From Brachyhypopomus gauderio (taxonomy: Eukaryota; Chordata; Actinopteri; Gymnotiformes; Hypopomidae): a stretch of 64,000 nucleotides of DNA. Under the pieces are notes generated by a model. That model was not told the origin of the DNA. It worked only from the letters and a program-made list of their open reading frames with translations, and did no database searches. Numbering within the stretch: position 1 is the first letter of the stretch; each line of letters begins with the position of its first letter. This document shows, piece after piece, positions 37,658 to 59,279 of this stretch. Position numbers and translations under genes: made by a program. The stretch is taken from positions 310,001 through 374,000 of the forward strand of contig NW_027506913.1 in the NCBI RefSeq assembly GCF_052324685.1, in the 5' to 3' direction.

Positions 37658-38094
37658 GGTTTACTTACTAACGTTAACTAATGCATTAGTTAATATGAAC
37701 AACATATGAGTAACACAATAACAATAATTAACTAATGTTAAGTAAACATGTAACAGTTGCATTAGTTAATGCTGTGTTTTTATAAAGTGCAGACTAAGTG
37801 ACGTTGACTAACTAACATGCATTACACGCCCAAAAGGGAGGGGCCGGGGTCCTCAACGTGACAGACGCCCCCTCCAAGGGCACTACCCGTCCCGGGGTGC
37901 CAACAGGATCGAGTGCCCCGAACCCACGTCGATGGGCGGATCCGACGCGCTCAGTCCTGCGTCTGGGAGGTGACCGCTCTCGGCGAAACGTCCGCCACGA
38001 ACCGCCTAGAACACCCTCCCTGGGAAGACCGGGGAGAAGACGTTAGACAAACACAACGGAACGTTCACAAATACACAAACAGGTACACTTACAC

Positions 38095-38198
38095 ACAGGG
38101 CCGGCCCTTCCATTAGGCGACATAGGCAAATGCTAGGGGCGCCGTCTGTCCAGGGGGCGCTCGCGTGCATGCGTTTTTTTTTTTTTTAAACAAATGAA
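38095..38198 (+). mobile_element. Left end (104 bp) of the CAGGGCCGGCCC hAT family at the outer edge of the left arm
   Basis: CAGGGCCGGCCCTTCCATTA through AAACAAATGAAC equals the first part of the full element at 51633-52941, then switches abruptly to retroelement minisatellite sequence (CACCGCACTGACGTC). The T run is longer (15 T) than in the other copies. Confidence 0.85.
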
Positions 38199-38862
38199 CC
38201 ACCGCACTGACGTCATCGGGGGGCGTGACCACCGCACTGACGTCATCGGGGGGCGTGTCCGCCACACTGACGTCATCCCGGGTCCGAGCTGGCCACTCCT
38301 GTGGTGAGTGGCTACTGCGTCCCCCCAAAAAATTCTTGGGGGGCCTTCGGGGAGTGGCTTCCGGGATGCAGTCATCGGGGGTCGTGGAGGTCCTGAGCCT
38401 GTTACTGACCCACAGGTCGGCGGTTATTCCCCATTGAGGCTGAGGGGTAGACTCATAAGTACCCCCCCCAAACCTTTCACACAGCGAACGACAAAACCCT
38501 GCCATGGTCCAGGCGTCCGTCGCCCGGTGTTTTAGGATAATGTCAGCCCACTCCAGGGCTCTTCCCTTCAACAGAGACCGCAAAAACATCACCAGTATGT
38601 TCTCGGGTGGTCTAGGAACAGTGAGGTGTCGTATGTATGCTTCACTCTGAAGAAGAAAGAGTCTGACCAATCCGTTCTCGCCATCGTATTCCTCGGGGCA
38701 GGGACACAGAGAGGGCAGCGCCACAGGCTTACCCCCAGCGTCTTTAGCCAGTAAAGCTTGGATAGAGTCCAGTTGTTTAGTAAAGGCATCCCTATCAAAC
38801 GGTTGTATAGGAACAACCACTGTTTTAACATTCTGCTGCGTCATATCTTTCTGGTCGGTCAT
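38199..38862 (-). pseudogene. Truncated gag-like ORF of an LTR retroelement (left-arm copy)
   Basis: This is the inverted copy of 47753-48416. It encodes the same gag-like segment, with LLKGRALEWADIIL, and is cut off after two units of the DDVSAVVTPP repeat. The matching LTR part is 38865-39094. Confidence 0.75.
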
Positions 38863-40211
38863 TATGTTACGTTTGGGGCGGACAGGCATGACGCAAATGC
38901 AGAATTCAGGGGGTTTTAATAAGGAAAGTAACAAACACAAACATAACACAGAGGGCAGAGGGACTATACTAAACAATAGGGAGAGGACACCAACTAAACA
39001 GGTAAGCTAAACAACAGGGAAACGTGAATGTATAGACCATAACAAACCGAGAACTATGTAAGCATACGGAGGGGAAGAACATATGATACAGGGATAACAC
39101 AACAGTAAACTTTAACTAAGCAAACAACGAGACACGGAAGTACAAAAGATTACAGAAGACTAGGGGTATGCACAAGGAAAACATACGCGCTGAACATGGG
39201 AAAACAAAACAAACGAAGGCTAAGAACGAAGCAGAGAGGGAGAACAAGAACTATAACATAACCAGACTATGAAGCAGGGCAAAGGAAAAACGAGGGACTT
39301 ACACACAAGGACAATAGCATGAACGGACCATAGGCAAAACAGAGGAACAGCGAGGGACTCACGTACAGGGACCCGACAACGGAGAACAACACTAGGGGGT
39401 TTTATACACAAAGACAAGACGGTGAAACAAGACTCAGGTGTGCGAGACTAACGACGAGGGCGTGACAGACAGACGGAGGGACGAATGGGAGCGGGAGCTA
39501 GGCGGGACCAGGGAGGAGGGAGGGGCTGGACGTGACGTATACATACATACATACTTGTCACGCCCGTGATACCTACCTGTCCTGTTATATCTGTGCCTGC
39601 CACATCGGACAAACTCATAACACCATGTCCAACATCTGCGAGTGTCTGCTATTCTGTCTGATTGTGACAATACTCACAAAAAAGCTTTGGACTGGCTCAG
39701 ATTAAAATGTGTATTCATTGTGTATTGTCTTTGTAAATTGAAAATTAAAAAGTTTGAGAAACACGAGCTTCATGTTTGCAAGAACTGAGTTGTCTGCAAC
39801 AAAATGAATTTAAAAATCAAATAAGAGACTTTCAGAACAATTATTTGATTGGCTGTTAAAATATTGCATTTAATGTGATTTGATTAAAATTCTATAGAAA
39901 TAATTTCATTGAAAGTATGTCTAAAAGCATGTTAAGTAAAATACATTATGATTAAACATTGATTTAAACACCATTTATCCTTTGCAAGTATGCACTTTTA
40001 CATAAGTTTATCCACACCACTAAAACTTATACCATATAGCAATTTTCTATTAGCTAAATAGATAAACAATTATGAACAATTTAACAGAAACCACCCTAAT
40101 AAATATCAACAGTTTCATTTCATTCAATCTAAAAATGGCCTCCTGAACATTTTAACATTTCCTCTGATTGTTTTTCTCTCCTCTGGGTTTTAATCTATTC
40201 ATAAAGCCTGT

Positions 40212-40754
40212 TTAAAGAATTATACACCAGGAGTTGTTCTCTGGTGGACTCTCAGTTGGTTTCATCTTTTTGAGGAAATCTTCTCTCTGCAGATTCCGGA
40301 TTATCTTGAGGAGGCCCTGGCTGACTCGATAGGTGCGACTACGGCTGAAATTCGTCTGAGTTGTGTGTTCAGCTATGTACACCCTCTCAAGATAACCACT
40401 GTCATTAAGACACACGATGATGCGATCCATGTTACTGTTCTGAAGATCCCTCGAGTAGTTCTCTCTGACGTACCAGGGCAATTTGTCTGCTCCTGGGGCA
40501 CTGAGGTTGCCCACCTCATACTTTGGGATGTTCTGATTAGGCAAGGGTGTTTCTTCATCATCAATTCTATTGTGGAATCGGTGAAATCCATAAACTCCAT
40601 GTGTAAGGTTGAACTTTGGAACCAAACGACCAAATGTATCAATGTCAATGCATTCATTTGCAAACCAATACAAAAGATTTAGTCCATGTCTAGGATATGG
40701 CTTGCCAAACCCTTTGTCTTTGAGCTGGGCCAGTTCATTTAGAGTCATTCCCAT
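40212..40754 (-). CDS. GIG2 family protein (left-arm copy)
   Basis: GIG2 proteins are known as interferon- and virus-induced proteins of non-amniote vertebrates, with distant similarity to PARP catalytic domains and antiviral roles. This 180-aa protein carries the family marks YPRHGLNLLYWFAN (about 20-33), YEVGNL, SNMDRIIV and TYRVSQGLLKIIRNL. It ends CIIL, a CaaX-type prenylation motif with Leu at X. The coding part lies in one exon starting at 40786; a short noncoding exon is inferred near 41110-41135. It is identical to the protein at 45861-46403. No signal peptide or membrane segment is seen. Exact biochemical activity is not known from sequence. Confidence 0.85.
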   Translation of the reverse strand: MGMTLNELAQLKDKGFGKPYPRHGLNLLYWFANECIDIDTFGRLVPKFNLTHGVYGFHRFHNRIDDEETPLPNQNIPKYEVGNLSAPGADKLPWYVRENYSRDLQNSNMDRIIVCLNDSGYLERVYIAEHTTQTNFSRSRTYRVSQGLLKIIRNLQREDFLKKMKPTESPPENNSWCIIL

Positions 40755-41149
40755 GATTGATATCCAAGAAAGACCTATACAGATCTCTGGATGAGGACAA
40801 AAACATTAGGTAAATGGACTTTGAACTACATCAAATAGCTGTGTTCCGTAATACAACATTGTCAGGATTTAGTAAAGCATATTCGAAGTACATGCAAAAA
40901 GCCAACGTTAGTTAACAATGGGAATTTACCGTCTACATTTAGAAAGTACTCACTACGGTCAGAAATATTAAAACAAGCCTGTGAATTACAATGTAAGTTG
41001 TACACACCACCACTGTCTCCTGTAGCTTGTGCGTAGACTAATTGCAGTAGTCTCCAGACTTCTCCACTTGCTGTCTCAAGACTGAACATGAGTAACACGC
41101 TGCACTTACTTTAATCCTGTATAGGAGGCAGGCTTCATCAGGCTGCACT

Positions 41150-41163
41150 AGGAAACCAAAACT
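41150..41163 (-). promoter_or_regulatory. ISRE-like element, left-arm GIG2
   Basis: AGTTTTGGTTTCCT on the minus strand differs at one base from AGTTTCNNTTTCNY and lies just upstream of the inferred first exon. Mirror of 45452-45465. Confidence 0.45.
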
Positions 41164-41346
41164 TAAAGCAGCATTTCTGCACAATGAATGGGAATGTGAA
41201 ACTTATCACACCCACGGGCTATCATGTTACCATTTATACACTCAGATAACAAATATGCTCAGATTTATATGCTCAGATAACAAAGTGGGTTATATAGATA
41301 ATTGAACACGTTTTGAGGGCAGGCCTGGCCTTTTGAAGCGAGACGG

Positions 41347-41529
41347 CAGGGCCGGCCCTTTCATTAGGCGACATAGGCAAATGCTAGGGGCGCCGTCTGT
41401 CCAGGGGGGCGCTCGCGTGCATGCGTTTTTTTTTTAAACAAATGAACAATTAATAAATGTGAAAACAAGCAAAGTCCACATAATCATAATTTCATTGTTT
41501 AATAATATTTGTCAAATTAATAATTTTTG
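41347..41529 (+). mobile_element. Left end of the CAGGGCCGGCCC hAT family, inner edge of left arm
   Basis: 183 bp equal the terminal part of the hAT element that ends at 45268. The match stops at 41529, where unrelated sequence (GTGCTTTGCTCAACGG) begins. Confidence 0.85.
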
Positions 41530-42336
41530 TGCTTTGCTCAACGGAGAGCACTCCGGAGAGCGAGTTTGGGGAGGAGGATTGGCGCTACCTGCTGGTGGTT
41601 TTCTTTTTCATTTTCCACTTTTCATTTTCATTTCCCACTTTTCTTTTTCGTTTTCAACTTCACCAGCATGCAAATACCAGGCTTGGCGATATCCAAGCTT
41701 TCACCAACATGCAGCTTAATACTGTTGTATGTCGGAATATATGTGAAATGGTAGAACGCTTAAGGTCTGGATCGTGGACCATGGAAAACCGCCCAGTGCG
41801 AGGTCGACCTAGGTTGGACGTTGCCGAAAAGACGACGCTGAAGTTGGTTACTTATTCGCAGTTTCAGATTTGTTACTTACTCGCAGCTCCTTATTCGGCA
41901 GCTGAAGTTGGTTCCTTATTCAAAAAGGGTGTGTTCACGATGCGTGTTTGCTGCGCACTTTGTTTAAAAGAGATAGATTAAACAAACGAGCATAGGAGCA
42001 TACATTAAGAGGTTATTGTTTCCCATACTGATTTTGTGAATGTAGAAAAAAATATTAAAATATAATGAAAGCATTCCTTTTTGTAAAATGGTTTCTATTT
42101 CAAGTCGTTACAATTGTATGCAATTTGTACATGATTATTGAATTTGTCAGCATTTCTAACGTAAGGAAACATATTCTTAAATTTGGAAACTAAAAACACA
42201 GAAATGCTGTTCTAGAACACACATGAATCGGAAGAAGAAATACCAGCACACAACATGGCATATTGAGCAGTGGGCATATAGGTGAACGGATTTAAAGGGG
42301 CAGTTACAGAAGCTTATTGAACAGACCCTCCAGAAA
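41530..42336. other. Spacer of the inverted duplication, left part
   Basis: Non-duplicated sequence. A weak open frame at 41529-41981 (plus) includes TMENRPVRGRPRL but has no convincing domain; it may be a repeat-derived scrap. Nothing else is recognised. Confidence 0.35.
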
Positions 42337-42344
42337 GTTGCGAT

Positions 42345-43523
42345 TAGTGATGTGTCGTTGGCGAACGATCCGGTTCTAAGAGCCGGCTCTTTGAAGTGAA
42401 CGATGGAACTGGCTCTGCAATGGGAGCCGTTTTAGGATCCTACTATCCTATTTCCTTCAGTATTGCGCTTGTGCTCTGCAAGTGTCACAGTTTTTTCCAA
42501 CATCGTTTTTATTTGTCCTTCGGTGCCTCACTGTCTCTCCCTCTCCTTGCGCCTATTGCTCTGCTTCTGCCAGTGGTAGAGAGCGGAGAGTTTATTTCCT
42601 CAGTTTGTGCCAGTTTATACCTGGCGCGTCGCGACCAGCGCGAGGGTCCGTGCGCCGAAAATGACGCAATCGCGGTGGCTCCGCCCCTGCGTGAGGACCC
42701 CAGTGCGAAGCAAGGTCGTGCACCTCTTCAGCGCAATGAACAAAGTTATTTATGCCGGGTTCATACACCTTTACAAGGTGGAATTCAAGCACTTGAACGT
42801 CACTTTCAGGGTCCATTTTCAATATTTCCCAGCAAACTTAAGTTAAATATTTATACATATACTCGAAATGATTCGAAACAATTGGGCTTTTCATATCACA
42901 TCGATTCAGTCAGACAGCTATTTTTGTGAAACAAAATACAGTTACATTTTCAAGCATTTTCAAGTACTTTAGCCTACTTTAGCACTTTTCAAACCTGGAA
43001 CACAATGCAACATTCGTCAGGTAAATGTTCCTTCCCCTGTGTTTGAGGGGTGTTTCTTTATACTACCACATATCGTTTCGGACAACACTGCAAAGAATGT
43101 CTCCACTGCCCGCATGTCAAGCGTGTGCTCAACACATCTGACCAATCACACGCAGATTTCAGTTAATAATGTGGTGGGAAAACACTGAAAAAAAGTTATC
43201 TCCACTTTTTTTGTGGAAACGGCAGGCAATTGACCAAGCTGTATTGCGTTCTATTTTGGTACTATTTTGTGATCATTTAATAATTGGTTATAATAAAAGT
43301 TTTATTTATAAAGCATTGTTATGCAGCATTTTTACTCATCACAAGTGCTTAACAATGTCAATAATGAAACAAAATGTTATAAAATTAGTATTAAGCTATT
43401 AATTAATTAATAATGTAAAAAATATATATGGGGAGCCGTTTGGGAGCCGAAAGAGCCGGCTCTCCACAGTAAGAAGAGCCATTAGAGCCGCATCTCAAAA
43501 TAGAGCCGAAAATCCCATCACTA
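42345..43523. mobile_element. Non-autonomous hAT element with 8-bp target duplication GTTGCGAT
   Basis: The ends are TAGTGATG and CATCACTA, with GTTGCGAT at 42337-42344 and 43524-43531. Subterminal AGAGCCGGCTCTT-like repeats occur at both ends. The interior (about 42609-43090) holds an inverted copy of repeat family A, either nested or a shared module. No transposase frame. Confidence 0.85.
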
Positions 43524-43722
43524 GTTGCGATGTTGCGATTTGCAACTTCAACGCAACTTCAAGCAAACCCCGCGAATTCAGGGCGGTGTTGCAACTTCAG
43601 CCAATCACCGCAACTTTCCCGCAAATTTGACCAATCACTGATGTCGTCTTGATGTGACGTCGACTTGATGCTCCCTACTTCCGTATATACGTTCAAGAGG
43701 AGCAGACTGAAAGCAGCATGAG

Positions 43723-45268
43723 CAGAACCGGCCCTGACCAATGTGGTGCCCTAGGCGAGATTTTGGTTGGTGCCCCCTGTATCATCAATCATTGGGTTGA
43801 TTGTGTCACTATTAAAGAAACAATCAAAAAGCAAATGACTTAAATATTACCATATAACAGGCGTACTCAACTAAATTTGTCCGTGGTCCAATTTTGGCAG
43901 ATACCGGTGGCGAACGTAAGTTGTTGACGGGGGGGGGGGGGGTCGAGCGGCGCGTGGCGAACGTAAGTTTTTTCAATAGCCCTGAAATAAATGATCCGGT
44001 TTTGTTTTGGTCCGTATCCAGTTAATCAAGAATGAGATTGGGTCCGGACAGGACTGCGTTCAAAAAGCAAATTACTTAAATATTACCATATAACAAGCAA
44101 TAAATATAAAGGTGTTGCACAAAAAATATTTTAAAACTATTTTACATAATGTAGTGCTGAGAACAACTTTTAAATATTAATAATACATTTAAAAAAAATA
44201 AAAAACAACAACTACCACCAATGCAAATCAGGGCAATTTGCCTACTGCAACATTATTATTTCAAAAGTGCATCCGCAATGAACAGAGGAGCATATGTGTG
44301 TTTTAATATATATTTATTTTAAAACTTGCTGATCTAAGCTAACCATTGCACCTACTAGGATTGGGCAGTATGATGACAGTGGCGGTTTTCACTAAGATCA
44401 TACAGAGGGGATAAAGCCACAATGACAATTGAGTGTTAGTTGTGAGTCAAGCGAGCTGGTTTCAAAGAAAAACACAACAGCTACAGATTGGCAACATTTT
44501 GGATTTGTTTCAAATAAAAATGAGAGACCATTGGAGCACGCCCCCACAATTCTAATTCGATAATATGATTGGTTGATAAAACTGCCAATCTATAATAAAA
44601 GCTCTCAATGTAAACGGTATTTTCTCTTTTTTACCTAGAAACAACGGTGTGAAATATTCTGATTGGTTGATTTTTTATTTCACCGCTGAAGTTTTTTTCC
44701 ACCACAAGTACGAAAAGTGAATTTAAAAGCCGATTTATAGGAAAAATACAAATTATTGGTAAAGCGTTATTAACATATATTACATATAATAGATAAAGCA
44801 TCCTTTTTAAGATCAATTAACCTTCAGAGAAGGCGTTGAAGTCCCTGACGGTTCGCCACTGGTATAGTGTTAATTCACCACATATTACCATTATATTACC
44901 TGTTTTTTGCCGCCTTTCTTCCTCCATTTTTCTCCTTTTTCTACCCTGGGCACCAGAGGATTTCTCCCTTTTTGACGTCTTTTCGAGGAGATGTCACTCA
45001 CTCTGTGGTGTCTTTTCCCCCCACAGAGAAACAGTAACGAGGTGCGCAGAGCGCGCGCGGGTGATAGGTGTCGTGTGTTGTTATTATAAAAATTATTAAT
45101 TTGACAAATAATATTAAACAATGAAATTATGATTATGTGGACTTTGCTTGTTTTCACATTTATTAATTGTTCATTTGTTTAAAAAAAAACGCATGCACGC
45201 GAGCGCCCCCCTGGACAGACGGCGCCCCTAGCATTTGCCTATGTCGCCTAATGAAAGGGCCGGCCCTG
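43723..45268 (-). mobile_element. CAGGGCCGGCCC hAT element, full length with an inner insertion
   Basis: This is an inverted near-copy of 51633-52941. The ends are CAGAACCGGCCCTG and CAGGGCCGGCCC. About 235 bp (roughly 43863-44092) are additional: the insert carries GGCGAACGTAAGTTGTTGA units around a G run and is bordered by a repeated AAATATTACCATATAACA. No matching target duplication flanks the element, consistent with later rearrangement. Confidence 0.8.
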
Positions 45269-45451
45269 CCGTCTCGCTTCAAAAGGCCAGGCCTGCCCTC
45301 AAAACGTGTTCAATTATCTATATAACCCACTTTGTTATCTGAGCATATAAATCTGAGCATATTTGTTATCTGAGTGTATAAATGGTAACATGATAGCCCG
45401 TGGGTGTGATAAGTTTCACATTCCCATTCATTGTGCAGAAATGCTGCTTTA

Positions 45452-45465
45452 AGTTTTGGTTTCCT
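45452..45465 (+). promoter_or_regulatory. ISRE-like element, right-arm GIG2
   Basis: AGTTTTGGTTTCCT has one mismatch to AGTTTCNNTTTCNY. It lies about 30-40 bp upstream of an inferred noncoding exon ending at 45505 (GATTAAA before GTAAGT). The coding exon begins at 45829 after TCATCCAG. Confidence 0.45.
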
Positions 45466-45860
45466 AGTGCAGCCTGATGAAGCCTGCCTCCTATACAGGA
45501 TTAAAGTAAGTGCAGCGTGTTACTCATGTTCAGTCTTGAGACAGCAAGTGGAGAAGTCTGGAGACTACTGCAATTAGTCTACGCACAAGCTACAGGAGAC
45601 AGTGGTGGTGTGTACAACTTACATTGTAATTCACAGGCTTGTTTTAATATTTCTGACCGTAGTGAGTACTTTCTAAATGTAGACGGTAAATTCCCATTGT
45701 TAACTAACGTTGGCTTTTTGCATGTACTTCGAATATGCTTTACTAAATCCTGACAATGTTGTATTACGGAACACAGCTATTTGATGTAGTTCAAAGTCCA
45801 TTTACCTAATGTTTTTGTCCTCATCCAGAGATCTGTATAGGTCTTTCTTGGATATCAATC

Positions 45861-46403
45861 ATGGGAATGACTCTAAATGAACTGGCCCAGCTCAAAGACA
45901 AAGGGTTTGGCAAGCCATATCCTAGACATGGACTAAATCTTTTGTATTGGTTTGCAAATGAATGCATTGACATTGATACATTTGGTCGTTTGGTTCCAAA
46001 GTTCAACCTTACACATGGAGTTTATGGATTTCACCGATTCCACAATAGAATTGATGATGAAGAAACACCCTTGCCTAATCAGAACATCCCAAAGTATGAG
46101 GTGGGCAACCTCAGTGCCCCAGGAGCAGACAAATTGCCCTGGTACGTCAGAGAGAACTACTCGAGGGATCTTCAGAACAGTAACATGGATCGCATCATCG
46201 TGTGTCTTAATGACAGTGGTTATCTTGAGAGGGTGTACATAGCTGAACACACAACTCAGACGAATTTCAGCCGTAGTCGCACCTATCGAGTCAGCCAGGG
46301 CCTCCTCAAGATAATCCGGAATCTGCAGAGAGAAGATTTCCTCAAAAAGATGAAACCAACTGAGAGTCCACCAGAGAACAACTCCTGGTGTATAATTCTT
46401 TAA
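45861..46403 (+). CDS. GIG2 family protein (right-arm copy)
   Basis: This 180-aa protein is identical to the left-arm copy. Family marks are YPRHGLNLLYWFAN, YEVGNL, SNMDRIIV and the C-terminal TYRVSQGLLKIIRNL segment. The last four residues CIIL form a CaaX box predicted to favour geranylgeranylation. The start ATG follows TATCAATC in an exon opened by a good acceptor (TCATCCAG at 45828). The three tandem paralogues lie 8-14 kb downstream in the same orientation. The protein is only moderately similar to them, so this is a separate GIG2 subgroup. Confidence 0.87.
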   Translation: MGMTLNELAQLKDKGFGKPYPRHGLNLLYWFANECIDIDTFGRLVPKFNLTHGVYGFHRFHNRIDDEETPLPNQNIPKYEVGNLSAPGADKLPWYVRENYSRDLQNSNMDRIIVCLNDSGYLERVYIAEHTTQTNFSRSRTYRVSQGLLKIIRNLQREDFLKKMKPTESPPENNSWCIIL

Positions 46404-47078
46404 ACAGGCTTTATGAATAGATTAAAACCCAGAGGAGAGAAAAACAATCAGAGGAAATGTTAAAATGTTCAGGAGGCCATTTTTAGATTGAATGAAATGA
46501 AACTGTTGATATTTATTAGGGTGGTTTCTGTTAAATTGTTCATAATTGTTTATCTATTTAGCTAATAGAAAATTGCTATATGGTATAAGTTTTAGTGGTG
46601 TGGATAAACTTATGTAAAAGTGCATACTTGCAAAGGATAAATGGTGTTTAAATCAATGTTTAATCATAATGTATTTTACTTAACATGCTTTTAGACATAC
46701 TTTCAATGAAATTATTTCTATAGAATTTTAATCAAATCACATTAAATGCAATATTTTAACAGCCAATCAAATAATTGTTCTGAAAGTCTCTTATTTGATT
46801 TTTAAATTCATTTTGTTGCAGACAACTCAGTTCTTGCAAACATGAAGCTCGTGTTTCTCAAACTTTTTAATTTTCAATTTACAAAGACAATACACAATGA
46901 ATACACATTTTAATCTGAGCCAGTCCAAAGCTTTTTTGTGAGTATTGTCACAATCAGACAGAATAGCAGACACTCGCAGATGTTGGACATGGTGTTATGA
47001 GTTTGTCCGATGTGGCAGGCACAGATATAACAGGACAGGTAGGTATCACGGGCGTGACAAGTATGTATGTATGTATAC
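46404..47078. other. 3' flank of GIG2 in the right arm
   Basis: AT-rich sequence shared with the left arm, probably the GIG2 3' UTR. It is followed by CTCGTGTTTCTCAAACTTT (hAT-end-like) at about 46847. No gene. Confidence 0.4.
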
Positions 47079-47750
47079 GTCACGTCCAGCCCCTCCCTCC
47101 TCCCTGGTCCCGCCTAGCTCCCGCTCCCATTCGTCCCTCCGTCTGTCTGTCACGCCCTCGTCGTTAGTCTCGCACACCTGAGTCTTGTTTCACCGTCTTG
47201 TCTTTGTGTATAAAACCCCCTAGTGTTGTTCTCCGTTGTCGGGTCCCTGTACGTGAGTCCCTCGCTGTTCCTCTGTTTTGCCTATGGTCCGTTCATGCTA
47301 TTGTCCTTGTGTGTAAGTCCCTCGTTTTTCCTTTGCCCTGCTTCATAGTCTGGTTATGTTATAGTTCTTGTTCTCCCTCTCTGCTTCGTTCTTAGCCTTC
47401 GTTTGTTTTGTTTTCCCATGTTCAGCGCGTATGTTTTCCTTGTGCATACCCCTAGTCTTCTGTAATCTTTTGTACTTCCGTGTCTCGTTGTTTGCTTAGT
47501 TAAAGTTTACTGTTGTGTTATCCCTGTATCATATGTTCTTCCCCTCCGTATGCTTACATAGTTCTCGGTTTGTTATGGTCTATACATTCACGTTTCCCTG
47601 TTGTTTAGCTTACCTGTTTAGTTGGTGTCCTCTCCCTATTGTTTAGTATAGTCCCTCTGCCCTCTGTGTTATGTTTGTGTTTGTTACTTTCCTTATTAAA
47701 ACCCCCTGAATTCTGCATTTGCGTCATGCCTGTCCGCCCCAAACGTAACA
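47079..47750 (+). mobile_element. 5' LTR of a gag-bearing retroelement (5' limit uncertain)
   Basis: The last 230 bp (47521-47750, ending AAACGTAACA) recur at 50103-50332 with one noticed difference, as expected for paired LTRs. A TATA box (TATAAAA, 47209-47215) lies inside. Because the second LTR is truncated, the left boundary cannot be fixed. The sequence after the LTR does not show a clear tRNA primer site. Confidence 0.65.
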
Positions 47751-47752
47751 TA

Positions 47753-48850
47753 ATGACCGACCAGAAAGATATGACGCAGCAGAATGTTAAAACAGTGGTT
47801 GTTCCTATACAACCGTTTGATAGGGATGCCTTTACTAAACAACTGGACTCTATCCAAGCTTTACTGGCTAAAGACGCTGGGGGTAAGCCTGTGGCGCTGC
47901 CCTCTCTGTGTCCCTGCCCCGAGGAATACGATGGCGAGAACGGATTGGTCAGACTCTTTCTTCTTCAGAGTGAAGCATACATACGACACCTCACTGTTCC
48001 TAGACCACCCGAGAACATACTGGTGATGTTTTTGCGGTCTCTGTTGAAGGGAAGAGCCCTGGAGTGGGCTGACATTATCCTAAAACACCGGGCGACGGAC
48101 GCCTGGACCATGGCAGGGTTTTGTCGTTCGCTGTGTGAAAGGTTTGGGGGGGGTACTTATGAGTCTACCCCTCAGCCTCAATGGGGAATAACCGCCGACC
48201 TGTGGGTCAGTAACAGGCTCAGGACCTCCACGACCCCCGATGACTGCATCCCGGAAGCCACTCCCCGAAGGCCCCCCAAGAATTTTTTGGGGGGACGCAG
48301 TAGCCACTCACCACAGGAGTGGCCAGCTCGGACCCGGGATGACGTCAGTGTGGCGGACACGCCCCCCGATGACGTCAGTGCGGTGGTCACGCCCCCCGAT
48401 GACGTCAGTGCGGTGGTCACGCCCCCCAATGACATCAGTGTGGCGGATACGCCCCCCGATGACGTCAGCCCGGTGGTCACGCCCGCCGATGACGTCGCTC
48501 TGGCTGCCACGCCCGCCGATGACGTCGCTCTGGCTGCCACGCCCCACGATGATGTCGGCCCGGCTGCCACGCCCCCGATGACGCCGGCCCGAGGAACACG
48601 CCCCCCGATGACGCCGGCCCGAGGAACACGCCCCCCGATGACGTCAGTGCGGTGGTCACGCCCCCCGATGACGTCAGTGCGGTGGTCACGCCCCCCAATG
48701 ACATCAGTGTGGCGGATACGCCCCCCGATGACGTCAGCCCGGTGGTCACGCCCGCCGATGACGTCGCTCTGGCTGCCACGCCCGCCGATGACGTCGCTCT
48801 GGCTGCCACGCCCCACGATGATGTCGGCCCGGCTGCCACGCCCCCGATGA
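47753..48850 (+). pseudogene. gag-like ORF running into a minisatellite
   Basis: From MTDQKDMTQQ the frame encodes a gag-like region: a Phe/Arg-rich part (GLVRLFLLQSEAYIRHL), LLKGRALEWADIILK and FCRSLCERFGG resemble the capsid part of Ty3/gypsy-type elements common in fish. After about 200 codons it becomes a 10-aa repeat (PPDDVSAVVT) and then shifts frame where a 29-bp unit occurs. No protease, reverse transcriptase or integrase follows before the 3' LTR, so the element is internally deleted and non-autonomous. Confidence 0.6.
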
Positions 48851-49340
48851 CGCCGGCCCGAGGAACACGCCCCCCGATGACGCCGGCCCGAGGAACACGC
48901 CCCCCGATGACGCCGGCCCGAGGAACACGCCCCCCGATGACGTCAGTGCGGTGGTCACGCCCCCCGATGACGGCAGTGCGGTGGTCACACCCCCCGATGA
49001 CATCAGTGTGGCGGATACGCCCGCCGATGACGTCAGCCCGGTGGTCACGCCCGCCGATGACGTCGCTCTGGCTGCCACGCCCGCCGATGACGTCGCTCTG
49101 GCTGCCACGCCCGCCGATGACGTCGCTCTGGCTGCCACGCCCCACGATGATGTCGGCCCGGCTGCCACACCCCCGATGACGCCGGCCCGAGGAACACGCC
49201 CCCCGATGACGCCGGCCCGAGGAACACGCCCCCCGATGACGTCTGCACGGCGACCTCGCCCTCCGATGACGTCTGCACGGCGACCTCGCGCTCCGATGAC
49301 GTCTGCACGGCGACCTCGCCCTCCGATGATGTCTGCACGG
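48344..49340 (+). repeat. 30-bp minisatellite with TGACGTCA cores
   Basis: About 33 units of roughly 30 bp (GATGACGTCAGTGCGGTGGT and variants) are arranged in higher-order blocks of 269 and 299 bp. Many units contain TGACGTCA, the CRE/ATF consensus. The 29-bp variant unit shifts the reading frame, and several frames stay open on both strands, which explains overlapping open frames here. Confidence 0.85.
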
Positions 49341-50102
49341 CGACGCCGCCTGTTCCCGCTGCCCGCCAGCGGGCCCCGCCGGTTCCCGCTACCCGCCAGC
49401 GACCCCCGCCGGTTCCCGCGCCCCGCCAGCGGCCCCCGCCTGTTCCCGCTGCCCGTCCGCGGACCCCGCCAGTCCCTGCGGCCCCTCCGCCGGCCTCCCC
49501 GGTCTCCGCTGTCCCTCAGCCGGACCTGCCCGTACCCATGGACCCCTCCCCGGCTCCCCTGGACCCTCCTCCGGCTCTGCCGGTTTCCCAGGACACTCCT
49601 CAGCTCACGCCAGCCCCCACAGTGACTGCCTTGCCCGCCTGTGGGCCTGGGGCTGGCTCCATGCTGAACTGTCCGGACATTGACACTCTTGTTAGTCCTG
49701 TTTTACATCTACCTATGTTCCCTTTTTTGCCCTGTTCCCTCCCTGGTTTCCTGTTAGTCCCTGTTCGTGTGTGTGTTTCTGTCCGCGTCCACGTCCCTGT
49801 CCCTGTGTCCATCCGTGGTGGTGTCCTCCATATCACTGTGCCTGTGTCTGTTCCGCAGATCGTCACCCACTTTGTTCCCGTCCCTGTCTCCGTCGTCCTC
49901 CGCTTGTTTGCCTCCGCGTCTCAGTCCTCCCTGGTGTCCAGTCCTGTGCCCTTGACCCCGTCTTGTCCGGCCTCGCCCCCTGTGTCGACCCCTTGTCCTG
50001 TCTCGTCTGTCCCCGTTCCCACGTCGCCACCCGTTCCTTGTCCTGGTCCTCCCATGCGTCCGGTGTCCGGGCCATTGTGTCTGTCCTACCCCGTGTCTGT
50101 TG
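49341..50102 (+). other. Pro-rich C-terminal remainder of the retroelement internal region
   Basis: GC-rich sequence with degenerate CCCGCCAGCGG(C/G)CCCCGCC units, then CCTGTCCCTGT-rich sequence. It is open in some frames but has no enzyme motif. It joins the truncated 3' LTR directly at 50103. Confidence 0.45.
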
Positions 50103-50332
50103 TCCCTGTATCATATGTTCTTCCCCTCCGTATGCTTACATAGTTCTCGGTTTGTTATGGTCTATACATTCACGTTTCCCTGTTGTTTAGCTTACCTGTT
50201 TAGTTGGTGTCCTCTCCCTATTGTTTAGTATAGTCCCTCTGCCCTCTGTGTTATATTTGTGTTTGTTACTTTCCTTATTAAAACCCCCTGAATTCTGCAT
50301 TTGCGTCATGCCTGTCCGCCCCAAACGTAACA
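50103..50332 (+). mobile_element. Truncated 3' LTR
   Basis: 230 bp repeat the end of the 5' LTR (TCCCTGTATCATATGTTC to AAACGTAACA), with GTTATATTTG in place of GTTATGTTTG. Its 5' part is deleted. Confidence 0.8.
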
Positions 50333-50785
50333 GTATATATATAAATAAAAAATAATTATTTATAATAAATATAAATATAAAAAAATAATTAATTGCACCA
50401 TAAACTATAACAAAGTAATTGGATCAGCTTACTTTATTGAGTTTCTTGTTAAAAGTTGATCTGAGCTTACAACCTGCATTGTCAAAATATACAAATTGTA
50501 GTTGAACCCTAGTTAAGGCCAGGCCAACTCCTCTGTACATGCTCAATTTGACTCCTTAGTTGAGAACGGGGCGGGGTTTGCGATTTCTGCCAGAATTGGA
50601 CTCCGGACATCTTGAAATGGATTTCACCTGCGGCAAGCAGCGACCTACGCTACTCTGAACTGAATATTAACGTCCAAATGTGTTTTGTCATTTGTCTTAT
50701 ATGACCCAACTTCAGTTAGCTACCGTATTCTTAGTACTGAATTTAGATATTTATGTACATGTGAAATATACATTATCTGAACTAG
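50333..50785. other. Intergenic stretch
   Basis: AT-rich sequence without recognised features. Confidence 0.4.
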
Positions 50786-50789
50786 ATAT

Positions 50790-51174
50790 TGTAGCGTCTG
50801 ACCAATGGGGGGGTGCCAGATGGTGACGTCATTACCCATGAGCCCTTGCGGCTCCGGCCCTGTTATGTGTATTATGTGGTGTTTATGTCTGTATAGTGTT
50901 ATTAATGATTATTAATTGTGTGTTATTAGTTAAGTCACCTGGTCCATTTTTTATGTACATGTGCATTATCCGAGTTCCCCCTCCATGTATGTGTAAAGTT
51001 GCCATCTTCATGACCTCCCCCTGTGTTTCATGTGCAATGTCAAGCTGTTTGTAGGCTTTGAGTTTGATCAGATTGTGCCTGTGAGTGCCAATTTTCTTGC
51101 AAGGTGAGAATAAAACCTGTGTTCTTGATAAGAATGTACTTGTCTGCGGCCTCTTTCTCCCACACTACGCCACA
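50790..51174 (+). mobile_element. Solo LTR with ATAT target duplication
   Basis: The block starts TGTAGCGTCTG and ends CTACGCCACA (TG...CA), with ATAT on both sides (50786-50789 and 51175-51178). AATAAA at 51109-51114 lies about 60 bp before the end. No internal region remains, as expected after LTR-LTR recombination. Family not determined. Confidence 0.65.
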
Positions 51175-51178
51175 ATAT

Positions 51179-51624
51179 ATTAAGTTGGCACAACTAAAAA
51201 AAAATTGGAACTCTTGGTATGTAACACTTACATTTTGAGGTTCATATACATGGGCAGGATAAATTATCTGAACAAGATATAATAAGTTAGCATAACATTT
51301 GGAATTATTTGTAGGCAATACTTAAAATCTGAAGTTTATATACCTGTGAAAAATAAATAATTGGAACAAGAAATAATAAATTGGCTCAACTGTGAGTGAA
51401 TTTCTTAAAAACTTAAGAGTTTGAGTTGGGATCAAAACTCAAAAATCGAGTGCAGTAAGTTACCTTAAAATTTTGAGTTTTCTCAACTTTTTCTTTTTTA
51501 CAGTGTGGCAGGTGTCAGTACACGGGTGATTGAGATGAGATGGGAGTGTCAGGGAATGAGAGGGTGTGTACTGTGATGAGGATATATGTATGTATATATG
51601 TATGCATGTGCACACACACAAACA
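51179..51624. other. Intergenic stretch
   Basis: AT-rich sequence with short TGTATATATG repeats near 51585. No gene or complete element is supported. Confidence 0.4.
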
Positions 51625-51632
51625 CACCGGCC

Positions 51633-52941
51633 CAGGGCCGGCCCTTCCATTAGGCGACATAGGCAAATGCTAGGGGCGCCGTCTGTCCAGGGGGCGCTCG
51701 CGTGCATGCGTTTTTTTTTTTAAACAAATGAACAATTAATAAATGTGAAAACAAGCAAAGTCCACATAATCATAATTTCATTGTTTAATAATATTTGTCA
51801 AATTAATAATTTTTATAATAACAACACACGACACCTATCACCCGCGCGCGCTCTGCGCACCTCGTTACTGTTTCTCTGTGGGGGAAAAAGATACCACAGA
51901 GTGAGTGACATCTCCTCGAAAAGACGTCAAAAAGGGAGAAATCCTCTGGTGCCCAGGGTAGAAAAAGGAGAAAAATGGAGGAAGAAAGGCGGCAAAAAAC
52001 AGGTAATATAATGGTAATATGTGGTGAATTAACACTATACCATTGGCGAACCGTCCGGGACTTCAACGCCTTCTCTGAAGGTTAATTGATCTTAAAAAGG
52101 ATGCTTTATCTATTATATGTAATATATGTTAATAACGCTTTACCAATAATTTGTATTTTTCCTATAAATCGGCTTTTAAATCCACTTTTCGTACTTGTGG
52201 TGGAAAAAAACTTCAGCGGTGAAATAAAAAATCAACCAATCAGAATATTTCACACCGTTGTTTCTAGGTAAAAAAGAGAAAGGACCTTTTACATTGAGAG
52301 CTTTTATTATAGATTGGCAGTTTTATCAACCAATCATATTATCGAATTAGAATTGTGGGGGCGTGCTCCAATGGTCTCTCATTTTTATTTGAAACAAATC
52401 CAAAATGTTGCCAATCTGTAGCTGTTGTGTTTTTCTTTTAAACCAGCTCGCTTGACTCACAACTAACACTCAATTGTCATTGTGGCTTTATCCCCTCTGT
52501 ATGATCTTAGTGAAAACCGCCACTGTCATCATACTGCCCAATCCTAGTAGGTGCAATGGTTAGCTTAGATCAGCAAGTTTTAAAATAAATATATATTAAA
52601 ACACACATATGCTCCTCTGTTCATTGCGGATGCACTTTTGAAATAATAATGTTGCAGTAGGCAAATTGCCCTAATTTGCATTGGTGGTAGTTGTTGTTTT
52701 TTATTTTTTTAATGTATTATTAATATTTAAAAGTTGTTCTCAGCACTACATTATGTAAAATAGTTTTAAAATATTTTTTGTGCAACACCTTTATATTTAT
52801 TGCTTGTTATATGGTAATATTTAAGTCATTTGCTTTTTGATTGTTTCTTTAATAGTGACACAATCAACCCAATGATTGATGATACAGGGGGCACCAACCA
52901 AAATCTCGCCTAGGGCACCACATTGGTCAGGGCCGGCTCTG
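51633..52941 (+). mobile_element. Complete non-autonomous hAT element, target duplication CACCGGCC
   Basis: The ends CAGGGCCGGCCC and GGGCCGGCTCTG are flanked by CACCGGCC at 51625-51632 and 52942-52949. An exon-like stretch (SDISSKRRQKGRNPLVP..., about 51898-52000) ends AAACAG before GTAATA, resembling a retained first exon of a hAT transposase. No catalytic domain is present. It inserted into the end of a Tc1-like repeat (CACTTTATTAGGTACACC follows). Confidence 0.88.
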
Positions 52942-52949
52942 CACCGGCC

Positions 52950-53100
52950 ACTTTATTAGGTACACCTTGCGAGTATCGGGTTGGATATTTTCTCTTTTTC
53001 TGACCATTCTCTGTAAACCCTCGAGATGATTGTGCATGAAAATCCCAGTAGATCAGCAGTTTCTGAAATACTGACCAGATTGTCAGGGCAGCAGGCTTTT
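52950..53100 (+). repeat. Tc1-like terminal fragment
   Basis: CACTTTATTAGGTACACCTTG matches the end seen at about 4597. The following ATGATTGTGCATGAAAATCCC and CAGTTTCTGAAATACTGACC are typical of a dispersed fish repeat. Truncated where the GIG2 unit begins. Confidence 0.5.
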
Positions 53101-53127
53101 CCTCACAGGCACAGAGCTCATTTCTGA

Positions 53128-53141
53128 GGAAAGAGAAACTG
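53128..53141 (+). promoter_or_regulatory. ISRE upstream of GIG2 tandem copy 1
   Basis: GGAAAGAGAAACTG fits the GAAANNGAAACT consensus. It is followed by a conserved GTGGGGGTGTGGCTGTAGTG block shared by all tandem units. Confidence 0.65.
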
Positions 53142-53200
53142 ACCCAACCTGTGGGGGTGTGGCTGTAGTGAGATAAAAAAAAATACAAATGTTTCTGGAG

Positions 53201-54166
53201 ACCTCTCCTTTGATGTATTTATTTTGAGGTCTGTATGTAGATTAAGCAGTTAAGTTTATACTCACATTCTACCAGTGAGTCCTGAATGTCTTGTTCAACT
53301 TGCACTTCCTGGTAGGTATATTTGTGGCTTTTATGACAACAATCACAGCCATACCTGTGACTCTGAGGTGGCTGTAGTGAGATAAAACGGTGCTGAAACA
53401 TTTTTTACATTCATTTAATGTTCTGTATGTAGATTAAGTAATTAAGCTTTCTATCAATTATTCCTGAATGTCTTGTTCAACTTGTACGATCGCATTTCCT
53501 GGTAGGTAAATCTGTGGCTTTTATGACAACAAACACAGCTGTACCTATGACGCTGAGAGGGAGGGAGTGTGGCATGTGTTCACCAGAGGAGTGTCTTTAT
53601 TCTCCATAGTGGAAATAAAGTAAATAAAGAGTGCAGCATCGAGCTGGCTAAAAGGCACAAAGACGAAAACACACTGGGAGAAAACACTCAAAATACTGAG
53701 ACACAGAAGAGCTGAACTAAACTCAGGACATTTTCCTTGGTGTGGCACAGGTAAGCAACACACAGCACTGGACCTGTCAGAGGGAAATAGGGAAGAAAAT
53801 TAAAGAGGATAACAGAAGACACAAGGACTCAGTATTGACTGGGAGTGTGGAACAAGTGCTCTGTGTGCGTGTGTGTGTGTGTTCAGCAGTGTGTTATATA
53901 CGTTTGGCAGGAGACCTGGTGTAACTTTACAGTAGTTTGTCATATTTAAGCCATTTTATGCAAGGTCTGAACTAGCCTGATTTTTAGTGTATGAAGATGT
54001 TTTATAGTTAATGAAGCTAACACATCATCAACAACCAACAGCGTAGATGTGAATAATGAAGTTCAAATGGACTAAAGGAGACTCTCATAGCTGTAATAAT
54101 GTTTTTTTTTTTTTTTATTGTTGTTGTTTAGATCCTTCTGAAACCACCTCCATTTAAAAGTGGACC
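53201..54166 (+). other. 5' region and intron of GIG2 tandem copy 1
   Basis: A noncoding exon probably ends at 53750 (GTGTGGCACAG before GTAAGC). The coding exon starts at 54132 after TTGTTTAG, 35 bp before the ATG. The same layout recurs at 56343/56700 and 58754/59568. Distance from the ISRE to this exon is about 0.5 kb, so an earlier start site is also possible. Confidence 0.5.
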
Positions 54167-54679
54167 ATGGCCAATGTAGAGACATTGAATGAAATAGCCC
54201 ATCTGGAGTCGTCTGAATTTGGTCGACCCTCACCAAGACATGGACTCAAATTGCTTTACTGGTTTGCAAATGATTGTGTAACTTTTGATGAACACAATAA
54301 TATGGTCACAGAGTATGACCTAGAGAATAAGGCATATGGTTTCCGCTCCTTTAAGAACAGATATCAGAGTGATGGCACAAAACTACTGCCTGAAGTGAAC
54401 CTCCCTTACTATGAGGTGGGCGATCTAAAATCAGCAGGAGCACAGAGCCTGCCCAGATATGTCTCTGAAGACTATATTGGCCACAAACACGACAGTAACG
54501 TGGACCGTATAATTGTTAGTCTTGATGATGAATTGGTTGATAAAGTTTACATCACCAGACACATCAACAACTCAAACTTCGACTCAGATAACACCTATCG
54601 CATCAGCAAGGGCCTACTTATGATTATTAGTCGGTTGAGTTTGGAAAAGTTTCTGGATGACACAGGGTATTATAACTGA
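54167..54679 (+). CDS. GIG2 family protein, tandem copy 1
   Basis: The 170-aa protein has the GIG2 marks RPSPRHGLKLLYWFAND, YYEVGDLKSAGA, SNVDRIIVSLDD, VYITRHINNSNF and TYRISKGLLMII. It ends GYYN, without the CaaX tail of the inverted copies. The single coding exon is opened by a standard acceptor at 54131. The ATG lies in GGACCATGGCC, a good Kozak context. The 3' flank has AATGGGAATAAATG, a poly(A) signal shared with copy 2. Interferon-inducible expression is expected from the ISRE upstream. It is closest to tandem copy 2. Confidence 0.87.
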   Translation: MANVETLNEIAHLESSEFGRPSPRHGLKLLYWFANDCVTFDEHNNMVTEYDLENKAYGFRSFKNRYQSDGTKLLPEVNLPYYEVGDLKSAGAQSLPRYVSEDYIGHKHDSNVDRIIVSLDDELVDKVYITRHINNSNFDSDNTYRISKGLLMIISRLSLEKFLDDTGYYN

Positions 54680-55369
54680 TTTAACATTTTTCCATTTACT
54701 AAACTAAAAACGCCAACAAGGATAGAGAAAAGTTCCTTATTGTTTATCCCCTTTGGATTTAATGGGAATAAATGTCCAGTATGCAGATTTGAATACTGGT
54801 AAAGTGACAGGGAAATAAATATTTCTGGATAGCTCAGCTAAAGTACGATAACTATATGGGAACGGAAATTGCTTATACTTCAAATAGGTGAATTACTTAG
54901 TGACATTCACTCTTGTCTTTTTGTATTGGAACAACAACATACAATTCAATTTATGTAACCTGGATTTATGATTTCATAATTCTGTTTATCTTGATTCTGA
55001 CTTTCTGTAATTCAGTTAAATTAGTGAATCTGACTAAAGGGATCTAATTAATTACAGGTTGAGAATGACTGTCCCAATCAGTATTGGTTGTATTAGTGTG
55101 TGTTTTTTGTACACTATATACCCATACTAATATATCAAATATTGTGAAATCCGAGTAAACATGGTGTTTGTTTTCCATACAATGCTAATGTACCAAAGAT
55201 TACTTAATTTGATGAAACAAGAATAAAAATGATGGACAAATGATCAATAAATTATATCTTTAGACTTGCTTTCTCTAAATGGACAGAGTTGTCGCCAACT
55301 TTTCAAAAGATGCTGTGGTTTCTTTGATTTCCTTTTTCTATCTCGCTCTTTAACTTATTGTTGTTGTCA
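54680..55369. other. 3' UTR and spacer after GIG2 tandem copy 1
   Basis: AT-rich, homologous to the flank of copy 2 (57248-57960). Contains AATAAA near 54767. No other feature. Confidence 0.5.
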
Positions 55370-55590
55370 TGGTGACCGGCGTCGGCCAGAGGAGGATGGG
55401 TTCCCCCCCTGAGTCTTGGTTCCTCTTAAGATTTCTTCTTCATGCCCTTAGGGAGTTTTTCCTTGCCACTGTCGCCCTTGGCTTGCTCACTGGGGGCTTG
55501 GACTTGGACACTTGTAAAGCTGCTTTGTAACAACAACTGTTGTAAAAAGCGCTATATAAATAAATTTTGATTGATTGATTGAGTGATTGA
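55370..55590 (+). repeat. LINE (L2/CR1-like) 3' end
   Basis: GGGAGTTTTTCCTTGCCACTG, then GTAAAGCTGCTTTGTAACAA, GCGCTATATAAATAAA and a TTGATTGATTGA tail form the usual 3' end of a common fish LINE. Confidence 0.6.
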
Positions 55591-55830
55591 TTTTAAGTGA
55601 AATCACTCATGTAATGTATATATACATCTTACATTGCAACAACATGGTTAGAAGCATATAATATTGGGAGTAGTGGCAGAAAGGCCAACGCACATGCGGG
55701 GCTGTAGGTCTACTGCTCTGTCCAGCTTTTGAAGTCATGCACCTTCTGACGTTCCTCTCCACGTTCTTTCTGCTAGGTGCAGATTGCCAGGGCAGCAGGC
55801 TTTTCCTCACAGGCTCAGAGCTAATTTCTG

Positions 55831-55844
55831 AAGAAACAGAAACT
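55831..55844 (+). promoter_or_regulatory. ISRE upstream of GIG2 tandem copy 2 (distal)
   Basis: AAGAAACAGAAACT matches GAAANNGAAACT exactly. Confidence 0.65.
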
Positions 55845-55929
55845 GATCCAGCCTGTGGGGGTGTGGCTGTAGTGAGATAAAAAAAAATAAAAAGCAGGCT
55901 TTCCTCACAGGCACAGAGCTAATTTCTCA

Positions 55930-55943
55930 GGAAACAGAAAGTG
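55930..55943 (+). promoter_or_regulatory. ISRE-like element upstream of GIG2 tandem copy 2 (proximal)
   Basis: GGAAACAGAAAGTG has one change from the consensus. It lies in a local duplication of the distal block, so copy 2 has two such elements where copies 1 and 3 have one. Confidence 0.5.
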
Positions 55944-56434
55944 ATCCAGCCGGTGGGGAGGTGGCTGTAGTGAGATAAAACGGTGCTGAAACATTTTTTA
56001 CATTCATTTAATGTTCTGTATGTAGATTAAGTAATTAAGCTTTCTATCAATTATTCCTGAATGTCTTGTTCAACTTGTACGATCGCATTTCCTGGTAGGT
56101 AAATCTGTGGCTTTTATGACAACAAACACAGCTGTACCTATGACGCTGAGAGGGAGGGAGTGTGGCATGTGTTCACCAGAGGAGTGTCTTTATTCTCCAT
56201 AGTGGAAATAAAGTAAATAAAGAGTGCAGCTTCGAGCTGGCTAAAAAAGACAAAGACGAAAACACACTGGGAGAAAACACTCGAAACATTGAGACACAGA
56301 AGAGCTAAATCAAACTCAGGACATCTTCCTTGGTGTGGCACAGGTAAGCAATGCACAGCACTGAACCTGTCGGAGGGAAATAGGGCAGAAAATTAAAGAG
56401 GATAGCAAGGACAAGGACTCATGACTGGCAGAGG

Positions 56435-56436
<2 letters not shown>

Positions 56437-56530
<94 letters not shown>
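56437..56530 (+). repeat. (GT)n microsatellite
   Basis: About 47 GT units in the first intron of tandem copy 2. The same position in copies 1 and 3 has only short GT runs. Confidence 0.9.
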
Positions 56531-56533
<3 letters not shown>

Positions 56534-56734
56534 GTAGTGTGTTATATCCCTTGGGCAGGGTGCCTGGTATACCTTAACACAAGCTTGTTGTATTTAAGGC
56601 ATTTGTCGTATTGCAAGGTCTGAACCAGCCTGATTTCAGTGTATGAAGGTTTTATAAACTGAAGGAGACATAGCTGTAATAATGTTTTTTATTGTTTAGA
56701 TCCTTTTGAAACCACCTCTATTTAAAAGTGGACC

Positions 56735-57247
56735 ATGGCCGATGTAGAGACACTAAATGAAATAGCCCATTTGGAGTCGTCTGGATTTGGTCAACCCTCA
56801 CCAAGACATGGACTCAAACTTCTATACTGGTTTGCAAACAAATGTGTAACTATTGATGAAAACAACGATATGGTCATAAATTGTTACCCAGAGAATAGGG
56901 AATATGGTTTCCGTTACTTTAAGAACAGATATCAGAGTGATGGCATGAAACTCCTGCCTGAAGTCGACTTCCACTACTATGAGGTGGGCGATCTAAAATC
57001 AGCAGGAGCACAGAGCCTGCCCAGATATGTCTCTGAAGACTATACTGGCCACAAAGACCACAGTAACATGGACCGTATAATTGTTAGTCTTGACGATGAT
57101 TGGGTCGATAAAGTTTACATCACCACACACATCAACAAGTCAAACTTCGACCCAGATAACACCTATCGCATTAGCAAGGGCCTACTTATGATTATTAGAC
57201 GGCGTAAATTGGGTAAGTTTCTTTACAACACAGGGTATTATAACTGA
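56735..57247 (+). CDS. GIG2 family protein, tandem copy 2
   Basis: This 170-aa protein is very similar to copy 1 (QPSPRHGLKLLYWFANK, YYEVGDLKSAGA, SNMDRIIVSLDDD, VYITTHINKSNF, TYRISKGLLMII), with scattered substitutions such as a charged RRRKLGK segment near the C-terminus. It ends GYYN and has no CaaX motif. The coding exon begins at 56700. The unit from ISRE to 3' UTR is a tandem duplicate of the copy 1 unit, about 2.6 kb long. Confidence 0.87.
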   Translation: MADVETLNEIAHLESSGFGQPSPRHGLKLLYWFANKCVTIDENNDMVINCYPENREYGFRYFKNRYQSDGMKLLPEVDFHYYEVGDLKSAGAQSLPRYVSEDYTGHKDHSNMDRIIVSLDDDWVDKVYITTHINKSNFDPDNTYRISKGLLMIIRRRKLGKFLYNTGYYN

Positions 57248-58070
57248 TTTAACATTTTTGTTTTCATTTGCTAAACTAAAAAAATCCAAAAAGGCTAGAA
57301 AAATGTCCTTTAATGTTTTCCCCCTTTTGAATTAATGGGAATGAATGTCCAGTATGCAGATCTGAATGCTGGTAAAGTGACAGGGAAATAAATATTTCTG
57401 GTTAGCTCAGCTAAAGTAAGATAACTATATGGAAACAGGAATTGCTTAGTAGAAATAAAATACTTCAAATAGATGAAATGAGAAACCTCAAATAAGTCAC
57501 TATTCAGTGACTTGTCACTCTTGTTATGTTGCTTTGGAACAAAACAGACAGTTCCATTTCTTTAACCTGCATTTATGATTCCGTAATTCTGTTTATCGTG
57601 CTTCTGACTATTTCTGTAATTCAATAAAATGGATGAATCTGACTAAAGACATCAAATTGATTACATGTTGAGGATTACTATTTCAATCGGTACTGGTTGT
57701 GTTAACGTGGTTTATATGTACACTATATACCATACACACACTAATATTTAATATAAGATATATATATAATAAAATATTGTAATATCAGAGTAAACTTGGT
57801 ATTTGTTTTCCATACAATGCTAATGTAACCAAAGATTACTTATTTAGATAAAATGAGAAAAACATTATTAATGAATGATCATTGAGTTATATAGTCAATG
57901 AATAACACACCTGTATATAATATATATAATATATACATTGTAACAACATGATTAGAATCATATCATATTGGGAGTAGTGGCAGAAAGGCCAATACAGACA
58001 CAGGGCTGTGGGTCTACTGCTCGGTCCAGCTTATGAAGTCATGCACCCTCAGGTTTATCCTCACAAGCAC
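57248..58070. other. 3' UTR and spacer after GIG2 tandem copy 2
   Basis: Homologous to the flank of copy 1, with AATGGGAATGAATG in place of the poly(A) signal. Contains short TATATA stretches near 57760 and 57920. No other gene. Confidence 0.5.
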
Positions 58071-58085
58071 AGAGCTCATTTCTGA

Positions 58086-58099
58086 GGAAAGAGAAACTG
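58086..58099 (+). promoter_or_regulatory. ISRE upstream of GIG2 tandem copy 3
   Basis: GGAAAGAGAAACTG is identical to the element of copy 1 and is followed by the same GTGGGGGCGTGGCTGTAGTG block. Confidence 0.65.
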
Positions 58100-59226: not shown

Positions 59227-59279
59227 AGTTGCTCTGGATAAGAGTGTCTGCTAAATGCCATAAATGTAAATGTAAATGT
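59227..59279 (+). mobile_element. 53-bp SINE/LINE-tail insertion with 16-bp target duplication
   Basis: GTTGCTCTGGATAAGAGTGT, TCTGCTAAATG and TAAATG repeats form the tail of common fish retroposons. It is flanked by ACTAGGGCAAATTCCA at 59211-59226 and 59280-59295. The inverted paralogue at 62546-62733 has the site once, without insert. A second similar tail is at about 59464-59506. Confidence 0.85.

Follow-up and report, generated by a model that had tools for sequence, protein, structure and literature searches.

An inverted repeat carrying two identical genes

How did two identical copies of a GIG2-like gene come to lie in mirror image on one contig of the fish Brachyhypopomus gauderio? The window analysed here is a 64,000-nucleotide stretch, positions 310001-374000 of the 1.03-Mb contig NW_027506913.1 (C69), in an assembly of 796.5 Mb and 840 contigs. 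It holds an inverted repeat with one GIG2-like gene in each arm. Our analysis points, with a probability of roughly 0.7, to a genuine and very young inverted segmental duplication. On this reading, while a broken end was being repaired or restarted, about 3.3 kb of the right-hand locus would have been copied into a site rich in repeats that lies some 3.6 kb further left.

The initial annotation had proposed a large inverted duplication and asked for its arms to be aligned base by base, and that comparison bears the duplication out. Positions 38198-41434 match the reverse complement of 45181-48417 at 3237 of 3237 bases, with a constant coordinate sum of 86615, and the perfect identity takes in intron, flanks and long terminal repeat (LTR) as well as coding DNA; an exact match of 3.2 kb cannot be a product of chance. 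The left arm, read as the derived copy, spans 38198-41528 (minus strand, 3331 bases) and the right arm, read as the source, spans 45088-48417 (plus strand, 3330 bases), separated by a spacer of 3559 bases (41529-45087) that is mostly repeat-derived. Identity breaks off sharply at the outer end. At the inner end a poly-T run counts 10 bases in the left arm and 9 in the right, which shifts the sum to 86616, and the 93 paired bases that follow, up to 41528/45088, contain one substitution (A at 41505 versus 45111). Both differences lie within a transposable element termed A and no more than 103 bases from the inner end of the arm; for the last 94 bases of the left arm they amount to one poly-T base and a single substitution. 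The claim that the sum stays constant without indels over 3.3 kb thus holds for 3237 bases and gives way at the inner end by one poly-T base, and the "almost no substitutions" of the same annotation amount to one in the paired arms.

Each arm encodes the same 180-amino-acid (aa) product in an intact frame, as had been predicted, at 40212-40754 on the minus strand and 45861-46403 on the plus strand. Both genes point outward, and the pair would accordingly form divergently transcribed, head-to-head, identical GIG2-like genes with the same regulatory sequence. A repeat scan of positions 1-36000 and 50500-64000 (seed 20, arms of at least 100 bases) returned one further inverted pair, of 152 bases, and in a whole-window BLAST comparison the other inverted pairs were copies of dispersed repeats.

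Host elements and the direction of copying

Three repeats that the arms cut through give the duplication a direction. At the outer side, the duplicated tract breaks at 48417 inside a 30-bp minisatellite (48338-49333, plus strand) that lies in the gag-like region of a non-autonomous Ty3/gypsy-like element (47079-50335, plus strand; start approximate). This element comprises a 5′ LTR to about 47753, a gag-like open reading frame with a DUF4939 match below cut-off, the minisatellite, and a truncated 3′ LTR at 50098-50335, 235 bases of which match the 5′ LTR at 99%. The left arm retains 38198-38277 of the minisatellite, about 2.7 units, which agrees with the earlier observation that this arm stops inside an array that runs on at the right. 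At the inner side, the right arm ends at position 182 of a hAT-like element, A2 (43723-45268, minus strand; about 1.3 kb plus a 197-base insertion), and the left arm ends with the first 182 bases of the same kind of element (41347-41528, plus strand). The minisatellite (to 49333), the gypsy-like element (to about 50335) and A2 (to its other terminus at 43723) all extend past the right arm, and the left arm has none of these continuations.

A diagnostic base in element A points the same way. Position 15 is T in A2 and in the left-arm copy; among 28 other copies it is C in 25, A in one, G in one and a gap in one, with no T. Of these 28 rows, L049 seems to be in the wrong orientation and L058 begins only at position 183. 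Because the minisatellite, the gypsy-like element and A2 continue only on the right and the left copy carries the T of A2, copying from right to left, with the right arm as source, is well supported by the sequence. The recent origin and the source arm first suggested for this locus are both supported.

The elements themselves show several further features. An intact reference copy of the hAT-like element, A1 (51633-52941, plus strand), is flanked by a perfect 8-bp target-site duplication, CACCGGCC, and the two 8-bp flanks of A2 do not match each other. The insertion in A2 (43863-44059, 197 bases) has 39 bp of duplicated element sequence on its borders, more than a target-site duplication usually measures. 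A1 and A2 are 98.5% identical, and among the best 40 of 941 candidates in the assembly other full-length copies reach up to 94% and partial copies up to 97%; with partial copies that close elsewhere, the idea that A1 and A2 form a special local pair is weakened. With its 30-bp unit, the minisatellite can be read without stops over long stretches on either strand and in more than one phase.

Scars at the two joins

Both ends of the left arm abut specific repeat fragments. The outer end adjoins the first 104 bases of a different A element (38096-38199, plus strand), which lacks the T of A2, and this fragment meets the minisatellite with 2 bp of microhomology (AC). The fragment is itself set into a repeat termed C, a piece of which (37824-38095, plus strand) flanks the arm on that side. 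The inner join is blunt, placing A position 182 directly against a 43-base piece of C (41529-41571, minus strand) in the orientation opposite to that of the outer piece; the match to C extends to 41578-41583, and the piece leads through a shared GGAGGATT into another repeat, B, from about 41572.

We compared eight genomic loci of C, each spanning 1.5 kb past the match. The outer piece is present in eight of eight, and the inner piece in five of eight: L060-L063, the four selected by this piece itself, and L015, one of four selected by the outer piece. L012 and L060-L063 each contain direct repeats of 340-371 bases, and L015 has none within the stretch covered; on account of these direct repeats we describe C as an LTR-bearing repeat of about 2.1 kb. 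The joins among C and B may be older than the duplication.

At up to 2 mismatches, neither join has a second occurrence in the 796.5-Mb assembly. For the inner join this holds even when 3 mismatches are allowed, and the outer join, present once exactly, then gains one 3-mismatch site on C8. Searches for an empty site or a second haplotype in the assembly found neither: the left flank (best 40 of 4477 candidates) and the left spacer (best 40 of 1369) matched repeats only, the flank matches being confined to its repeat part at about positions 390-700 of 800.

Mechanism and competing explanations

The copied tract would comprise part of A2, the GIG2-like promoter and gene, and the 5′ LTR and start of the gypsy-like element, ending in the minisatellite, and it would have been copied in reverse orientation during repair or restart of a broken DNA end. 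We infer template switching or one-sided strand invasion as the mode of copying, possibly primed by the left-site A element, and microhomology as the means by which the other end was joined. Two versions of such an event appear about equally plausible. In a template-switching version, the fork or polymerase would leave A at position 104, read the right locus in reverse from the minisatellite as far as A2 position 182, and continue from there, perhaps via the C and B fragments. In a homology-primed version, a break would arise in the left-site A element, its distal part would invade A2 and prime synthesis across the gene and into the minisatellite, and the new strand would be joined by microhomology to the other broken end. 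The homology-primed version would explain why both ends of the left arm lie in A sequence. It would also account for both arm differences, the substitution and the extra poly-T base, since within 103 bases of the inner end an A copy already at the left site could have supplied sequence. At the substituted site (41505/45111) the left copy has the common A and A2 the rare T (28 rows: 26 A, 1 T, 1 gap).

Inverted duplications of the template-switch type, known as microhomology-mediated break-induced replication (MMBIR) and fork stalling and template switching (FoSTeS), carry microhomology of a few bases and short fragments of other sequence at their joins. The present locus resembles them in having a few bases of microhomology at one join, AC, and a short foreign fragment, the 43-base C piece, at the other. 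It differs in that the event is read from scars only, with which A-primed homology repair is equally compatible, and scars of this kind are not exclusive to template switching.

Several points weigh against a young repair-mediated copy. As evidence for priming, one substitution within 93 terminal bases, which make up 2.8% of the length, is weak, and A2 may simply have mutated later. The homology-primed version also assumes an A element already cut at 182 beside repeat C. Contig C69 is small (1.03 Mb) and seemingly unplaced, and identity alone does not tell youth from recent gene conversion. With no difference in 3237 bases, divergence has a 95% upper limit of about 0.09%, which at an assumed round figure of 5e-9 substitutions per site per year would correspond to an age under about 0.1 million years; recent conversion would look alike. 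Gene conversion between the arms of an older palindrome, the process that keeps sex-chromosome palindromes uniform, would likewise leave 3237 identical bases across coding and non-coding DNA with differences at the inner end only. The locus shows no sign of such age, however, as ungapped identity falls to chance level directly past the outer end and past the inner end, and we consider conversion an improbable source of the identity. In mammalian X palindromes, inverted arms more than 99% identical are reported to be kept so by gene conversion (PMC8981503); the near-identical inverted arms are a shared feature, and the difference is that nothing here favours conversion over youth as the cause of identity.

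An assembly artefact, in which the left arm would stem from a fold-back read, a graph error or a second haplotype put in the wrong place, is less likely than a genuine duplication, and we would put it at rather long odds. The small contig, the repeat-rich region, arm repeats able to confuse assemblers and the lack of any substitution in the 3237-base stretch would all suit an artefact. Yet the two arm ends are joined differently, to specific repeat fragments, with 3.6 kb of spacer between the arms; there are differences at the inner end; the window contains no N; and among the matches listed, perfect copies of the searched arm stretch and of the gene occur only on C69. A misplaced haplotype would be expected to bring heterozygous differences and allelic flanks, and the unlike flanks at each arm end would speak against a fold-back read. 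A third possibility, which takes the duplication as genuine and concerns its mechanism, is that hAT transposase made the rearrangement directly, by the alternative transposition known from maize Ac/Ds, which acts between element ends. A pieces at both ends of the left arm and the unmatched 8-bp flanks of A2 would suit this, but the breaks fall at element positions 104 and 182, not at termini, and because both are internal to elements direct transposase action is disfavoured to the point of being very improbable. Of the three options the initial annotation had listed, young amplification, conversion palindrome and artefact, the young duplication is thus favoured, with the options only partly separated.

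A more specific scenario can be put forward tentatively: the head-to-head pair would be a segregating copy-number allele of an antiviral-type gene, newly arisen or conversion-maintained, and made when, in one repair event, copying of an inverted homologous element and the neighbouring gene was primed by a transposon fragment within the target site. In the favoured reading of a young duplication, the pair would probably increase dosage in a cluster of interferon-response-type genes. Overall, the locus is in our view probably a genuine inverted duplication of recent date, within an immune-type gene cluster that is expanding in a familiar way. As a gene duplication it is of an ordinary kind, set apart by the readability of its scars and by intact twin genes, and we see no new principle or kind of system in it. 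If genuine, it shows an immune-type gene cluster very soon after a step of its expansion, while the two joins can still be read and the frames are both intact, and it would allow a direct test of transposon fragments steering inverted gene duplication and of whether extra GIG2-like dosage is polymorphic in the species. If the repair-priming reading is true, it would represent a transposon-guided route to doubling an innate-immunity gene together with its whole promoter.

A shared promoter with ISRE-like motifs

Upstream of the right-hand frame we identified a putative non-coding exon 1 that would end at 45505, with a donor GT at 45506 and an acceptor AG ending at 45828 before the ATG at 45861; a non-coding first exon is plausible on these predicted splice signals. 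Two motifs resembling the interferon-stimulated response element (ISRE), at 45412-45424 and 45452-45464 on the minus strand, lie directly before the putative exon 1 and 41-94 bases upstream of its donor, each with one mismatch to what we take to be the ISRE consensus. Their mirror images stand in the left arm at 41191-41203 and 41151-41163, in keeping with the earlier proposal of one ISRE-like promoter in both arms. Since gene, exon signals and motifs all lie within the perfectly identical part, both copies have the same nearby regulatory sequence.

When the 592-base promoter stretch was shuffled 2000 times with dinucleotides preserved, four shuffles contained at least two ISRE-like motifs. 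The window as a whole contains 14 ISRE-like sites, and 20 simple shuffles averaged 5.35. The arm pair and its mirror images make up four of the 14 sites, and some of the others lie outside any promoter considered. Perfect ISRE matches occur at 53128 and 58086, on the side of the window that holds the tandem relatives of the pair.

The GIG2-like family in the window and the assembly

Three tandem GIG2-like genes on the plus strand, at 54167-54679, 56735-57247 and 59603-60340, are 47, 46 and 40% identical to the palindromic pair, respectively. The small second inverted pair of the window (59075-59226 and 62578-62729; 152 bp, 99%) is located at these tandem genes. Across the assembly we obtained 14 GIG2-like matches, with five on C69, eight on C1 (42.55-42.73 Mb) and one on C13. 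The Gig2 family is described as multi-gene clusters grown by lineage-specific duplication (PMC3617106), and the 14 matches show a clustered multigene family with lineage-specific duplicates of this sort. The likeness lies in clustered duplicates, here with relatives at more than one chromosomal site, and the difference in two members that are identical, inverted and head-to-head and in the lack of a PARP match with the libraries used. Gig2 of flounder and halibut is described as a small single-unit protein with one coding exon after a small non-coding exon (PMC9122973), and the 180-aa frame here lies in one exon downstream of the predicted splice signals. Full-length proteins in that text measure 147 aa against 180 here, and the word "inverted" is absent from its main text. 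Gene structure and clustering appear to agree with both descriptions (PMC3617106, PMC9122973). Among the titles and abstract openings covered, we found no description of an inverted identical Gig2 pair.

The gene structure, the size, the clustering and the relatives in the same assembly support the name GIG2, first given in the initial annotation, as a provisional one for the palindromic genes. Gig2 genes are described in the literature as antiviral, an interferon-inducible promoter is a mark of the family, and Gig2 proteins contain an N-terminal stretch weakly like the PARP signature. For the protein encoded here, Pfam gave no match up to E 10 (with filters that drop most weak matches), PDB profiles gave none up to E 10, and PDB sequence searches were also empty. 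An AlphaFold model built on an alignment of five window rows, two of them identical, had a mean predicted local distance difference test score of 51, a low confidence, and Foldseek with this model returned no match at E ≤ 0.001. A PARP fold was considered and is unconfirmed, the model being poor and the profile, sequence and structure searches without match.

The eight C1 matches sit in open frames of 300-542 aa. Four of these proteins that we inspected (L064-L067, 498-542 aa) have a signal-peptide-like start, judged by eye, one GIG2-like unit and a long C-terminal part, and the one scanned gave a weak SKICH match alone (E 0.019, below cut-off). On this architecture the C1 proteins are possibly secreted GIG2-like fusion proteins.

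Other features of the window

Rfam and tRNA scans of the window returned tRNA matches only, at 6.7-17.6 kb. A 76-bp stretch with a tRNA-Gln gene on the minus strand occurs twice, at 6719-6794 and 17567-17642, with 100% identity. Between 11845 and 12321 the minus strand matches DUF6729 (E 1.6e-61), a region that we presume may be part of a large KDZ-type transposon.

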